Shown here in pieces: positions 3,815 through 37,170 of a DNA stretch of 64,000 nucleotides. A program made the translations under genes and the position numbers. How positions within the stretch are numbered: position 1 is the first letter of the stretch; each line of letters begins with the position of its first letter. This stretch comes from Bacillota bacterium (GTDB taxonomy: Bacteria; Bacillota; Clostridia; Peptostreptococcales; Anaerovoracaceae), in NCBI GenBank assembly GCA_016280485.1, contig JAEEGU010000051.1, positions 136,327-200,326 of the forward strand, read 5' to 3'. The notes beneath the pieces were generated by a model, which worked only from the letters and a program-made list of their open reading frames with translations, had not been told where the DNA came from and did not search any database.

Positions 3815-3843
3815 TTGACTTTTTATTTCTAATGCTATATGCT
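3815..3843 (+). promoter_or_regulatory. Promoter for the small ORF at 3906
   Basis: TTGACT-17-TATGCT; divergent from the 3758-3786 promoter. Confidence 0.6.
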
Positions 3844-3905
3844 AAACATGAAAGTAGGTTGATGACGGATCTAAATGTTTTTCAGCTTCACGAGGAGGAA
3901 TGTAC

Positions 3906-4085
3906 ATGAAAATAATTATGCCGGATGGATCTCCAATGCTTCTTCCTGAAGAAGCGGAATGTCTTTGCTCGGGTGATTCACCGGAACGGATGCACGATTG
4001 TCCGATGTCCATGTTTGATGATTGGGGCAACACCTGCATCCCGCTCAAGTGTCCGCATTATCGAAACCCAGAGAATCTTCAATAA
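3906..4085 (+). CDS. Small cysteine-rich protein (59 aa)
   Basis: MKIIMPDGSPMLLPEEAECLCSGDSPERMHDCPMSMFDDWGNTCIPLKCPHYRNPENLQ; RBS GAGGAGG about 7 nt upstream, promoter upstream, hairpin AGCCGGAAAG...CTTTCCGGCT downstream. Confidence 0.65.
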   Translation: MKIIMPDGSPMLLPEEAECLCSGDSPERMHDCPMSMFDDWGNTCIPLKCPHYRNPENLQ

Positions 4086-8286: not shown

Positions 8287-9372
8287 TTACCTGTTGCTCT
8301 TTCGCTCCTCTTCTTCAGATTCGATGATTTTGATCATATATCGCATCGGATAAGGCAGGTTTTTCTTCAGGTTCGCCTTCAGCACGATTTCCCGTAGATA
8401 GTCATAGAGATCCGTCGTGGTAAATGACGTGGAGCTCTGCGCCTTTGCGATAACCAGGTCCCGCTCTTCCAGCGTCAAATGGAAATTGCACTTATCGAAA
8501 ATCGATCGATACAGTTCTTGCCAGGATTCTTCGCCGTTGGAACCGTTATCGATCATATTGCTCTCAGAGCTGCTCTCAAATGCGTCCGGTGCCGTCTCTC
8601 TGACCAGCTTTTCCCCGGCGTCGTTGAGATCGATGAAGGGGCCCCGGTCGTCTGCTTCATCCAGCGCGTTGCTCTTTTTAGACACCGTGATCTCCACGCC
8701 AATAACCGATCGAGCGTCGTTCGGATCCTTCGTCTTGGTGACGCTGCAATTGAGATCTGTCTTCTCGTTGATCTCTTCGATCGCAGCAGTAAAGATTTTA
8801 TCCAGGAATCTGCGCTGCTCAGGATATTTGTCTTCACAATCAAGAATCTTACGGAGATCGTCGATACTGATTTTAATGACGCGCTTGTAGTTATTCCGGA
8901 CCAGATAGGTGTACAAGTTGTAGGTGGATTCTCGCTTCATCCTGGAAATGTTCTGGAGCGTATATTTGATGTACCCGGAATTCGCCAGGTTGAAGAATAG
9001 CGCTGACCCGGTTTGGGAGCACTGGATGACGACCGTTTGCTTTTCATCTGCCTTCACAAGCGCAACATACTGAAAAGCAGGGGTGAAGAACACAGGCATC
9101 TTCTCTGTGCTGCACTTCATTGATATTCTCGACAGAGCGCCGAGCTGCTTTTCCAATGTTTTTAGATTGATCGACTTGTATGGCAGCCCGATCAGATTTG
9201 CAAACTCGCGTACAGTAAACTGCACCGGCTCCGTTGACGGTTTCAGTGGGTTGATTTTTGCCAGGTACGCATTCAGCAGCTTAATGGAATTCAATTCGAG
9301 TTTTGCTCGGTTTACCAGCTCCGTCAATTCGTGTCCCTGAGAAACCAGTTCCTTACCTGTAAATCCTGACAT
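8287..9372 (-). CDS. Replication initiator protein, Rep_3 (winged-helix) family
   Basis: FTVREFANLIGLPYKSINLKTLEKQLGALSRISMK...STYNLYTYLVRN...DDLRKILDCEDKYPEQRRFLDKIFTAAIEEINEKTDL; immediately preceded by iterons. Confidence 0.75.
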   Translation of the reverse strand: MSGFTGKELVSQGHELTELVNRAKLELNSIKLLNAYLAKINPLKPSTEPVQFTVREFANLIGLPYKSINLKTLEKQLGALSRISMKCSTEKMPVFFTPAFQYVALVKADEKQTVVIQCSQTGSALFFNLANSGYIKYTLQNISRMKRESTYNLYTYLVRNNYKRVIKISIDDLRKILDCEDKYPEQRRFLDKIFTAAIEEINEKTDLNCSVTKTKDPNDARSVIGVEITVSKKSNALDEADDRGPFIDLNDAGEKLVRETAPDAFESSSESNMIDNGSNGEESWQELYRSIFDKCNFHLTLEERDLVIAKAQSSTSFTTTDLYDYLREIVLKANLKKNLPYPMRYMIKIIESEEEERKSNR

Positions 9373-9533: not shown

Positions 9534-9957
9534 TATGTGACCCCTCTTTTCAGAAGGAATGTCCCCATTTTTCAGACGATTTGCCCCCGGTTTTCAGAAA
9601 GTGCGACCCTGCTTTTCAGAAGGTCTGACCCCAGTTTTCAGAGGATGTGTCCCCGCTTTTCAGAAGGTCTGACCCCAGTTTTCAGAGGATGTGACCCCGG
9701 TTTTCAGACAATGCGACCCCGCTTTTCAGAAGGTCTGACCCCGGTTTTCAGAAGATACGACCCCAACTTTCAGAAGGTGTGACCCCATTTTTCAGAAGAT
9801 GCGACCCCGCTTTTCAGAAGATGTGTCCCCGGATTTCAGAAGATATGACCCCATTTTTCAGAAGGAATATCCTTGATTTCCAGGAATATGACCCCATTTT
9901 TCAGAAACACAGGTCTGAATTGCCAAATTTGCGACCCCATTTTTCAGAAGTTATGTG
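9534..9957. repeat. Iteron array, ~18 copies of a 22-bp direct repeat (consensus TNTGACCCCNNTTTTCAGAAGG)
   Basis: Repeated tctgaccccagttttcagagga-type units at 22-bp spacing directly upstream of the Rep_3 gene. Confidence 0.9.
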
Positions 9958-29097: not shown

Positions 29098-29520
29098 TTA
29101 GATTCCAAAAACTTGAAGGGAATCAAGCATATCTCCATCGACTTCAACGACTCTTTCCGGCTGGGGCGAGCTGGTGGAATTGGCCGTTTTTGTCGCAGGA
29201 TACTGGATTGTGGGTTGAATTACGGTAATCGTTGGCTTCTTTACGGATCCCTTGGGCCTTCCGCGCTTTTTCCCGGTTGGCGCCTTTTCCGTTCTGGTTC
29301 CGCCGCTGGAGTTGATAGGACCCGCAGCGGAAAGAATTCGCTGCGCAATCATATCTGCAAGTTTCTCGTGATTCGCCTTGAGTAAGATACATTCTGTGAA
29401 GAATGCCGTGATTTGCCGGGGTTTCGTTTTATCCAGGAAGTAATTGTATGCTGCCGCTTGATCCGGGTCGTCCAGATTAAAAGTCAGATGCACTCCGACT
29501 TTGCTGTTACTGCTGGCCAT
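29098..29520 (-). CDS. ParR-like partner of the ParM protein
   Basis: 140 aa; VGVHLTFNLDDPDQAAAYNYFLDKTKPRQITAFFTECI; start overlaps the parM stop. Confidence 0.55.
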   Translation of the reverse strand: MASSNSKVGVHLTFNLDDPDQAAAYNYFLDKTKPRQITAFFTECILLKANHEKLADMIAQRILSAAGPINSSGGTRTEKAPTGKKRGRPKGSVKKPTITVIQPTIQYPATKTANSTSSPQPERVVEVDGDMLDSLQVFGI

Positions 29521-30460
29521 TTTCGCGCCTCAATATGGCGGCGTAAAGCGCCTCATATCCCTTGGCGTTTGCTTTGGGATCCGGAATAAACTCAGGATCC
29601 ACGATCCGGCCGCAGGCTTGAATGTAAGGCGCCAGCCTTGCAGCACCGCCACCGACAAAAATGGCTTTGTTGGTGGACAGGTCGATGCCAAGCTCAAACA
29701 GTTTGGAGACAATGCTGTTGACCCGGTTTTGTGCTTCAGCGGTAACATAGGGCAGGAGGTTCGTGCTGCTGTTCAATTCGCGGTTGGTTTCCAGCATTTG
29801 ATCAATCTGGTCTTCCGAAACGATCTGTCCGGTTCCGGATTGAATTGCCTGGGCCGCGTCATTGAACAGGTGGATCATTCCGGCGTCCAGAGACCTGCAC
29901 ATCTTCGGATCCAAACGCCCGCTGTTCAGCTCGACTACGTCGGTCGTGTAACCGCCGATGTCAACGATAAAGCACTTGCGGTAGTTTTTGATCCGGGAAA
30001 ACTCCGGCACGATCGCCGAGAACCCCTGGGGAAATACCTTTACGTCCTGGATATAGATTTGGTAGTCGATGTTCCGGTTGGAAAAATCAACCTGGCCGCG
30101 TTTGAAATATGCGGCAAAACGGTCTTGCAGCCGTGCGACGTCTCTGGGAGGCAGGCCGACAGCAAGCACAATCGGAACCCGGACACTCGTTGCGTCAATC
30201 CCCCTCGTTTTCAGCTCACGCAGAATTGCGAACAGGGAAAGAACGAAGTACCCCTCCGAGTCAGTTTTATCAGTCGCATAATTGACTCTATGGGTTGTCA
30301 GAGCGTAGCGTCGGCCGTTGTATGTCAGACTCTCCGTGAACATGGAGTTGCCAGTCTGCACCTCTTCAACGCCGGCTACGAATACATGATTAGCGGTTTT
30401 GATGCAGCGATTGCCGGTATCAATGCCGATAATCAGTGGGGCAGGATTGATGTAGGTCAA
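29507..30460 (-). CDS. parM: ParM/StbA-like actin-family plasmid segregation protein
   Basis: IIGIDTGNRCIKTAN (phosphate 1), FIVDIGGYTTDVV (phosphate 2), IFVGGGAARLAPYI (adenosine motif). Confidence 0.8.
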   Translation of the reverse strand: MTYINPAPLIIGIDTGNRCIKTANHVFVAGVEEVQTGNSMFTESLTYNGRRYALTTHRVNYATDKTDSEGYFVLSLFAILRELKTRGIDATSVRVPIVLAVGLPPRDVARLQDRFAAYFKRGQVDFSNRNIDYQIYIQDVKVFPQGFSAIVPEFSRIKNYRKCFIVDIGGYTTDVVELNSGRLDPKMCRSLDAGMIHLFNDAAQAIQSGTGQIVSEDQIDQMLETNRELNSSTNLLPYVTAEAQNRVNSIVSKLFELGIDLSTNKAIFVGGGAARLAPYIQACGRIVDPEFIPDPKANAKGYEALYAAILRRENGQQ

Positions 30461-33942: not shown

Positions 33943-33971
33943 AGTATATACTATTCTTATTGTTGTGTCAA
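33943..33971 (-). promoter_or_regulatory. Promoter TTGACA-17-TATACT
   Basis: Minus: TTGACA CAACAATAAGAATAGTA TATACT. Confidence 0.8.
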
Positions 33972-34058: not shown

Positions 34059-34184
34059 TGTCGTAGATAGTGGTCTGGAAATTTTGAACCACAATATATA
34101 GATTTGATTTCGACAACCCAGAAATGATACTGTTGTTCTGAAAATTCTGGATATGATTTATGCTCAACAAGGGAGGTTAATGAT

Positions 34185-34328
34185 ATGTATTCCGAGTACA
34201 CCATTGAAGTTTTCGGCAAGGAAGTTGCTGTCCGAAATTGCGACGGTCGGCCTGCGACGCAGAACGAATGCGATGCAGAAAATGAAATCATCGCCCAGAT
34301 GATCGCCGATGGCGTTGAAATTCCGTAA
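34185..34328 (+). CDS. Small protein (47 aa), own promoter, RBS and terminator
   Basis: MYSEYTIEVFGKEVAVRNCDGRPATQNECDAENEIIAQMIADGVEIP*; RBS GGGAGG; terminator GGGAGGCAGTTATCGCTGCCTCCCCTTTTTTT at ~34342-34373. Below the ORF-track size cutoff. Confidence 0.65.
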   Translation: MYSEYTIEVFGKEVAVRNCDGRPATQNECDAENEIIAQMIADGVEIP

Positions 34329-34383
34329 TTATCTGAATTTCGGGAGGCAGTTATCGCTGCCTCCCCTTTTTTTGCTTTACGAT

Positions 34384-34944
34384 TAGTATTGATTTCTTGG
34401 TTTATTGAAATATTGATATATTTGTTTATTGCATTATTGCCGTGCTGTTTTATTTATCTATTGCTTTATTTCTTTATTGCTTACATTTCTACGGCCCCCG
34501 TTAGCGCTTATCACGTGGCAGCAGTTAATTGATTAACACGCATATTGGCCTTCAGAAATGATATTTGTCACATAGATATTGGGATAATGGTTTATTGCTT
34601 TATTGATTTACGGCAATATTACTTTATTGTTTTATTGCGTTATTGAAGTCTTGCTGCATTGGATTATTGTGTTATTGGGAAATACCGTTTACGACAGAGA
34701 ACGCCCCGACGATCCGATCTATTTGATTATTGCGTTATGGTTTTATTGCTTTAATGTTTTATTGTTGTATTGGTATGTTGGCATATTGTTTTATTGGTCT
34801 ATTGCGTTATTAAGATATTGCTTTTTAGGATCCGGCAAATTCAGAGTGACAATCGAGAATGTATTGAGATATTGTCTTGTTGTATTATTATTACAGATTT
34901 ATTGCAATATTGTTTTATTGGTATGTTGCTATACTGCGTTATTG
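34384..34944. repeat. Octad array: ~47 units of 8-bp period (NNNTATTG) in four blocks; putative centromere/partition site
   Basis: Blocks 34384-34479 (12 units), 34574-34677 (13), 34717-34820 (13), 34859-34882 plus 34897-34944 (9); 29 of 47 units end in exact TATTG. Confidence 0.85.
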
Positions 34945-35012
34945 CTTACAATAGAGCAATACAAAAGGAGGCCGCTGCCTCTCGACAGCGGCCGTTTTTT
35001 TTGACGACACAT

Positions 35013-35615
35013 CTAAGGTGGCGCCAAAAACCTGCTATTTGCCGATAGCTCGGCGGGAGACTTATAAGAAATACCCCGATTTTCTGGCGTATCAGCATAG
35101 AAATATATTCCGATACGCAGTTTGCTGACGACAGTGCTGCCGTCATAGTCCAGGACGAGGGACATCCTGGACGCCCCTCCGCAGGGAAGGGTTTTTTGTG
35201 ATTCCGATTTGATCATCATAGTCGGAATCACTACTTTGGAATCTCTCCACCTGTAGATCAGGGGGAGGGATATCCCATGCCGGAGATCACGAAGGTAGAT
35301 AGATCTCTCGGCATCTGGCTGGCCGGGGAAGCCCCGCCAACCAATCGTTTTTTCCGCTACGTACGGGGGCAGCTCCATGAACAGCTCTCGAACATAGCGG
35401 ATTGTGGCGGTCTCACCGCCGAAGTACCGTGCCACGCCTTGTGACACAGCATGATTCCCGAGGATTAAATCAATCGCCCGAGAACCTTTCCTCCACCGCA
35501 GAATCTCTGTCGTGGAGGAGCTTTTTTGCGTCTTTGACGTAATGGAGGTTGATTCCTCCAATTTTCCCGCCTCCTTTCTACTTCCTCTTGGATAGCAGGA
35601 AGTCAACCGGATCAT
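35013..35615 (-). CDS. Hypothetical protein
   Basis: 200-aa ORF downstream of a promoter and structured leader. Confidence 0.45.
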   Translation of the reverse strand: MIRLTSCYPRGSRKEAGKLEESTSITSKTQKSSSTTEILRWRKGSRAIDLILGNHAVSQGVARYFGGETATIRYVRELFMELPPYVAEKTIGWRGFPGQPDAERSIYLRDLRHGISLPLIYRWRDSKVVIPTMMIKSESQKTLPCGGASRMSLVLDYDGSTVVSKLRIGIYFYADTPENRGISYKSPAELSANSRFLAPP

Positions 35616-35834: not shown

Positions 35835-35863
35835 ATTATATACTATTGGCATTGTTTTGTCAA
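35835..35863 (-). promoter_or_regulatory. Promoter TTGACA-17-TATAAT
   Basis: Minus: TTGACA AAACAATGCCAATAGTA TATAAT. Confidence 0.8.
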
Positions 35864-35991
35864 TAGGACGCGAAGGTGAATTCTGGGCTTGTGATTTAGC
35901 GAACAATTTGTACACAACCGAATATAAAACCCGACTCGTTCAATGATTCATCGAACAAGCCGGGGGCGTTGAGGCAAGAAGTATGTCAGGA

Positions 35992-36198
35992 TTACTCGAT
36001 AAAACCATTCTCTTTGGCGTACAGATGAATTGCCTGGTCGACAATGTCACTGCGGGGAATTTTGGTTTTATAGTTTATCAGATCGATCAGATCTTTTGTG
36101 GCCGTAGGCAGAGAGAAGGTGTAATTCTTTTTGAGCTCGGGGAGAGAAGCGTTCTCGCTCTCACTGTTTGCAAGCTGCATCTCAAGAAAGTTGGGCAT
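35992..36198 (-). CDS. RHH-type DNA-binding protein, putative ParB-equivalent partner of ParA
   Basis: 68 aa, YTFSLPTATKDLIDLINYKTKIPRSDIVDQAIHLYAKENG; directly downstream of parA. Confidence 0.6.
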   Translation of the reverse strand: MPNFLEMQLANSESENASLPELKKNYTFSLPTATKDLIDLINYKTKIPRSDIVDQAIHLYAKENGFIE

Positions 36199-36203
36199 CG
36201 ATA

Positions 36204-37016
36204 TTACCTCCTTAACATAAGCTGCGTGGCAAATTCTTTGATGAATTCTTCCGCAAGGGAAGTATAGTCCAGGGAGATGTTGCAGCTCGGATATTGATAG
36301 ATCACATTCTTGCGATCATCGTGGGCCTGGTCAATCGTTACGCACTGACGAATTTGGGTATTAAAAACCTTGTACCCGCATTCCTTGGCCATCGCATCGA
36401 TTTCACCGGAGATCTTTTGCCCGATCTTCGTTCTTGCGTTCGTTCTTGTCAGGACAATTCCCGCTACTTGCAGCTTTTTGTTCAGGCGATCCTGCACACT
36501 CTTGATAAGATCCAGAAGGCCTTCGATTCCTTCTTTACTGCCGAGATCTCTGTTCGCAGGGATCAGGCAGACGTCCGCAACACACAGCGCATTTACAACC
36601 AGGTAGCTCAGGTTGGGAGGACAGTCCATAAGTACGACATTGTACTTTGAAATCGCCGGGCTCTTTTCGAGCCTGTCCCGCAGCGTGAACATGGCGGCGA
36701 TCGGGTTTTTATTAAGCTCTGCCTCGATATTTCCCATTTCGTCCTTGCTGGACGGGCAAAGATCGAACCAAGGGAGCCGCTGGATCGTTTCGCCAATATC
36801 CATCATTCGGTTTTTGTCAGTAGTGAGAACATTGTAGACGGTTGGCCCGGAGACAGCGCCGGCATACGTGCTCAGGTTTGCCTGTACATCAAGGTCAATG
36901 ACCAGGACTTCAGCACCCTTCTTATGAAGAGCTGCGGCGAGACATTCGCAGGTCGTGGTTTTTGCTACTCCGCCTTTTTGATTTGCGATTGCGATAATAA
37001 GCGGCTTTGCTGCCAA
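36204..37016 (-). CDS. parA: ParA/Soj-family partition ATPase (ORF open to 37046; TTG at ~37016 has a good RBS)
   Basis: IAIANQKGGVAKTTTCECLAAAL; VLVIDLDVQANLSTY; VVLMDCPPNLSYLVVNAL. Confidence 0.9.
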   Translation of the reverse strand: MAAKPLIIAIANQKGGVAKTTTCECLAAALHKKGAEVLVIDLDVQANLSTYAGAVSGPTVYNVLTTDKNRMMDIGETIQRLPWFDLCPSSKDEMGNIEAELNKNPIAAMFTLRDRLEKSPAISKYNVVLMDCPPNLSYLVVNALCVADVCLIPANRDLGSKEGIEGLLDLIKSVQDRLNKKLQVAGIVLTRTNARTKIGQKISGEIDAMAKECGYKVFNTQIRQCVTIDQAHDDRKNVIYQYPSCNISLDYTSLAEEFIKEFATQLMLRR

Positions 37017-37060
37017 AGAAAACATCTCCTCTCTGATTGAACTCAAATATGTATTTGCGG

Positions 37061-37092
37061 GTTTATTGGGATATTGATTTACTCATTTATTG
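37061..37092. promoter_or_regulatory. Octads (gtttattg ggatattg atttactc atttattg) in the parA 5' leader; putative autoregulatory operator
   Basis: Same 8-bp period and TATTG core as the 34.4-34.9 kb array. Confidence 0.6.
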
Positions 37093-37141: not shown

Positions 37142-37170
37142 ATTATATACTATTTGTTTTAATCTGTCAA
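37142..37170 (-). promoter_or_regulatory. parA promoter TTGACA-17-TATAAT
   Basis: Minus: TTGACA GATTAAAACAAATAGTA TATAAT. Confidence 0.85.

Follow-up and report, generated by a model that had tools for sequence, protein, structure and literature searches.

Plasmid pAD1 of Enterococcus faecalis carries octads of the form TAGTARRR, and the parH site of TP228 has a pitch of 4 + 4 bp. The parS sites of the delta/omega system of pSM19035 consist of runs of 7-bp WATCACW heptads, which are non-palindromic and arranged as both direct and inverted repeats, and the RHH ParB of that plasmid requires at least four contiguous repeats (PMC9499535). In TP228, tetramer boxes and AT-rich spacers make up the parH array, and an operator lies before parF (PMC7308502). 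The RepB protein of pAD1 has been grouped with proteins having ParA ATPase motifs, and both repB and repC are reported to contribute to stable maintenance (PMC1626470). A second paper names the pAD1 iterons, in the printed form TAGTRRR, and links RepC with stable inheritance (PMC9743546).

The array described here lies in a 64,000-nucleotide stretch of a Bacillota contig (the window), and comprises about 560 bases with four blocks of variable 8-base repeats. Read in register on the plus strand, block A (34384-34479) has 12 units, blocks B (34574-34677) and C (34717-34820) have 13 each, and block D (34859-34944) has 3 + 6 units (34859-34882 and 34897-34944), with a 14-bp interruption at 34883-34896. 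At least four contiguous octads are present in every block apart from the 3-unit half of D. All five registers of the original prediction were recovered on re-reading, giving 12 + 13 + 13 + 3 + 6 = 47 octads, with a terminal TATTG in 29 of the 47, but the array is not 'exact', as had been claimed, since 18 of the 47 units depart from TATTG. Neither does it end at 34944, because two inverted octads on the minus strand right after block D, CAATAGAG and CAATACAA (34949-34964, inverted repeat I1), carry it on to 34964; this inverted pair, CAATANNN, includes the site of CAATANNNCAATA, which is unique in the window. Terminator-like hairpins border the array on the left (34342-34365, plus strand) and on the right (34970-34993, scored on both strands, with a long T run on the plus strand). 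A small plus-strand ORF (34184-34328; about 48 aa), which has a good ribosome site, stops just short of the left hairpin, and a 200-aa ORF (35013-35615) that has its own promoter and matches no family lies between the array and the gene for an RHH protein.

The periodicity proposed earlier stands clearly above the shuffled baseline. Across 34384-34944, self-match at lag 8 was 0.494, compared with 0.308 in 1000 dinucleotide shuffles (z = 10.2), and autocorrelation peaks were found at 8, 16, 24, 32 and 40 only, with z values of 10.2, 8.4, 7.2, 5.8 and 4.6, respectively. The octad consensus is NNNTATTG, with TATTG as the core word, and TATTGNNNTATTG occurs 12 times against an expected 0.03. Information content is 0.02, 0.40 and 0.39 bits at bases 1-3 of the octad, and 1.85, 1.33, 1.41, 1.75 and 1.33 bits at bases 4-8. 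This profile of near-random and then near-fixed positions looks like the mark of a set of spaced protein sites, unlike a microsatellite. When the genome itself was searched for three exact units in a row, or four relaxed ones, matches fell inside the array only. A sub-threshold Rfam match to ar35 at the array end was taken as chance.

The same word recurs at one other place in the window. A matrix built from the 47 octads was slid over both strands of the 64 kb as four consecutive units, and the sole strong match outside the array was at 37061-37092 on the plus strand (score 32.4, next best 8.9), a level reached by 0 of 20,000 simulated parA-leader sequences. These four octads, GTTTATTG, GGATATTG, ATTTACTC and ATTTATTG, had been missed by the original prediction, and are placed between a consensus promoter and parA, where they are predicted to form an operator or second centromere site. 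The promoter (37142-37170, minus strand) is TTGACA-17-TATAAT, a 12/12 match to consensus. The parA gene (36204-37046, minus strand) specifies a Walker-type ATPase (AAA_31, 2.1e-39; ParA-like phrog_164, 8e-49), in which AAA_31 begins at residue 17 of 280 and there is no N-terminal HTH domain; the likelier start is the TTG at 37016, which is preceded by AGGAG. A gap of 5 bp separates parA from the downstream gene for a 68-aa RHH protein (35992-36198, minus strand; RHH_3, 1.1e-6, exceeding the gathering score), and a terminator-like hairpin with a 16-pair stem follows (35930-35964, minus strand). The short gap and the strong hairpin after the RHH gene indicate a two-gene operon. An AlphaFold model of the RHH protein, made from the single sequence with no alignment, was weak (pLDDT 68), with helices at the RHH positions.

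The best explanation of the array is that it serves as the parS/parC centromere of a type Ib ParABS system, bound cooperatively by the RHH protein, on a conjugative element that replicates by Rep3, a reading to which we give a probability of roughly 0.78. As in other type Ib systems, the ParA is a Walker ATPase with no HTH domain at its N-terminus, a small RHH gene lies directly downstream of parA, the two being framed by one promoter and one terminator-like hairpin, and an array of short direct and inverted repeats is found at or near the operon. That the array is the parS-like site of the ParA and 68-aa RHH pair, as originally proposed, remains the best-supported reading, given the octads in the parA leader and the 8-bp arrays upstream of other parA genes, while the binding itself is predicted. 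One dimer of the RHH protein would occupy each octad, with TATTG as the recognition word, and binding would be cooperative, with the dimers arranged head to tail over the blocks of 12-13 units. The coated array would then be the cargo caught by nucleoid-bound ParA-ATP, and the N-terminal tail of the RHH protein may stimulate the ParA ATPase, leading to movement of the plasmid. The same protein would also occupy the four leader octads and so repress its own operon; the position of these octads is suggestive of such autoregulation. A point against a role as centromere is position: the array is downstream of the parA-RHH operon by about 1 kb and closer to the operon of an actin-like protein (ALP) gene.

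That proximity underlies the strongest of the alternatives, in which the array would serve the ParM-like ALP (29507-30460) as its parC, with a 140-aa protein (29098-29520) acting as ParR. The ALP is present (ALP_N, 9.6e-9; MreB-like_C, 3.4e-12), its gene cluster starts beside the array (promoter 33943-33971), no other repeat arrays were found near the ALP gene, about 3.9 kb downstream of the array, and ParR proteins are typically RHH proteins (PMC9426499). However, the 140-aa protein matches neither RHH nor ParR families, the ParR repeats cited in PMC9426499 are mostly 10-20 bp, and outside the array octads cluster only in the leader of parA, not in that of the ALP cluster. The recurrence of the octads at parA links the array with the parA-RHH operon, not with the neighbouring ParM-like gene, and together with their absence from the start of the ALP cluster and the lack of an RHH match in the 140-aa partner makes the actin-type pair improbable. 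The region 29098-30460, beside T4SS genes, combines a ParM relative with this unmatched downstream protein and is a candidate for another partition system of the element.

It is very unlikely that the array is a set of replication-origin iterons or an AT-rich unwinding element: it is AT-rich, non-coding and repeated, and the element does have an initiator of its own, but that initiator, of Rep3 type (8287-9372), is already adjoined by a set of 22-bp iterons, 25 kb from the array, and units of 8 bp are short for Rep3 iterons. Least probable of all is a neutral AT-rich microsatellite of no function, since simple-repeat runs of TATTG do occur in other genomes but the longer microsatellites there have near-identical units, in contrast to the near-random bases 1-3 and fixed bases 4-8 of the octads, and the same octad word recurs in the parA leader.

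The 22-bp tandem iterons, TGTGACCCCGGTTTTCAGAAGG, are present in about 15 copies at 9536-9906 beside the Rep3 initiator, a plasmid replication origin in the same contig as genes that look chromosomal. The element further codes for a TraG-like ATPase, a coupling protein, T4SS pilins and the actin-like protein, which together with the initiator and its iterons point to a conjugative, plasmid-like element. The genes in the right part of the window, from about 38 kb on, resemble chromosomal ones, and the element may therefore be integrated in a chromosome.

Type Ib centromere function for the octads is consistent with a survey of other ParA loci, in which, for each of the fetched loci, 320 bp of sequence upstream of parA was compared with 30 simulations. 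Period 8 was the best period and above 30/30 simulations at the window locus, at four Clostridium loci (L163, L164, C. tagluense pCM008-A, L177, and C. estertheticum pCF009-c, L178) and at Butyricicoccus pGAM44_1 (L181), as well as at the Enterococcus positive control (L187). The ORF after parA at the period-8 loci specifies 68-101 aa, or 68-131 aa with the control included, and loci with a long ORF after parA, of HTH-ParB size, gave no period-8 signal at that level. The Clostridium and Butyricicoccus loci resemble the window in having an 8-bp periodic array directly upstream of parA, and the core words are TATTG in the window, about TTAAGA in Clostridium and GTTAYA in L181. The small proteins of the four Clostridium loci form one family (67-80% identity to that of L163), and these loci therefore count as one case. 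They differ from the window RHH protein, which they match weakly, and have no Pfam match; a profile comparison (E 0.0016, 15 columns, probability 16) gives a hint only. Counting against centromere function, four ParA loci with small ORFs (L180, L182, L185 and L165) had no significant octads. In the Megamonas plasmid locus L180, the place of the octads before parA is taken by an AT repeat with a period of 14 bp, at about 3830-3990.

Among named systems, pSM19035 shares with the window a ParA with an RHH protein and runs of short sites that are both direct and inverted and occur also at the par promoter (PMC9499535), but the period in the window is 8 with no peak at 7, the word is not WATCACW, and about 47 units lie in one region compared with 7-10 per pSM19035 site. 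TP228 ParF/ParG is likewise a type Ib ParA with an RHH protein, differing in the box word and in the placement of parH upstream of the operon, and no match by sequence was found between the RHH proteins and a solved structure. Systems of the pAD1 type are alike in their tandem units of 8 bp, each with five conserved core bases, in the division into blocks, and in having a small-protein gene after that for ParA. The TAGTARRR probe matches 210 Enterococcus plasmids, among them pKUB3007-4 (the positive control above), in which two TAGTARRR octad runs lie directly upstream of the ParA gene, which is followed by that for a DUF5388 protein. The window differs in its core, TATTG rather than TAGTA, in its RHH_3 protein, which has no DUF5388 match, and in the position of its main array, which is downstream of the operon whereas that of pKUB3007-4 is upstream of parA. 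In pCF10 (L186), 9-bp periodic arrays are found on both sides of the ParA/PrgO operon (1545-1600 and 2801-2880), a two-site layout comparable to that of the window. The repeat pitch thus differs between such systems, being 7, 8 or 9 bp.

The suggestion that the array is a candidate new class of centromere cannot be maintained, since octad arrays with other core words are already found beside ParA pairs on Clostridium and Enterococcus plasmids. The octad partition array is of a known kind; what is new is the TATTG word, the block layout and the RHH protein. Searches of 397 genomes of the order gave no convincing homologue of the RHH protein, those of 392 genomes of the class gave only weak, short matches, those of IMG/VR and of 72,556 PLSDB plasmids gave none, and no relative was detected by sequence in the PDB. 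Relatives of the ParA reach an identity of about 40% at most. A scan of genome contigs with the pattern TATTGNNNTATTGNNNTATTG was too loose, the matches listed being mostly microsatellites; among the 397 order genomes it matched 16 others, in short or simple repeats, and no ParA was found in the fetched flanks of those matches. A related Vescimonas plasmid region (L156) had no short-unit array like that of the window. Judged by sequence, the RHH protein and the TATTG array are without relatives in anything searched.

Tentatively, the RHH partition proteins of Firmicutes could comprise several unrelated lineages, each having fixed a core word and a pitch (7, 8 or 9 bp), which jointly set plasmid compatibility; the present locus would then belong to an unrecognised lineage of octad type, whose centromere is unusually long, has four blocks and stands at a distance from the operon. 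If the centromere assignment is right, the locus offers a clean pair of RHH ParB and centromere from a Clostridia-type mobile element that is open to testing, and a handle on how RHH assemblies choose 7, 8 or 9 bp. It would also mean that the 8-bp pitch recurs across separate systems of ParA and small protein, and that repeat pitch could be used for the computational finding of centromeres beside parA.

Three minus-strand promoters around the array (37142-37170, 35835-35863 and 33943-33971) are alike, each being TTGACA-17-TATAAT or TATACT with AGTATATA around the -10 region. They head three leftward gene groups, and possibly share a regulator site.
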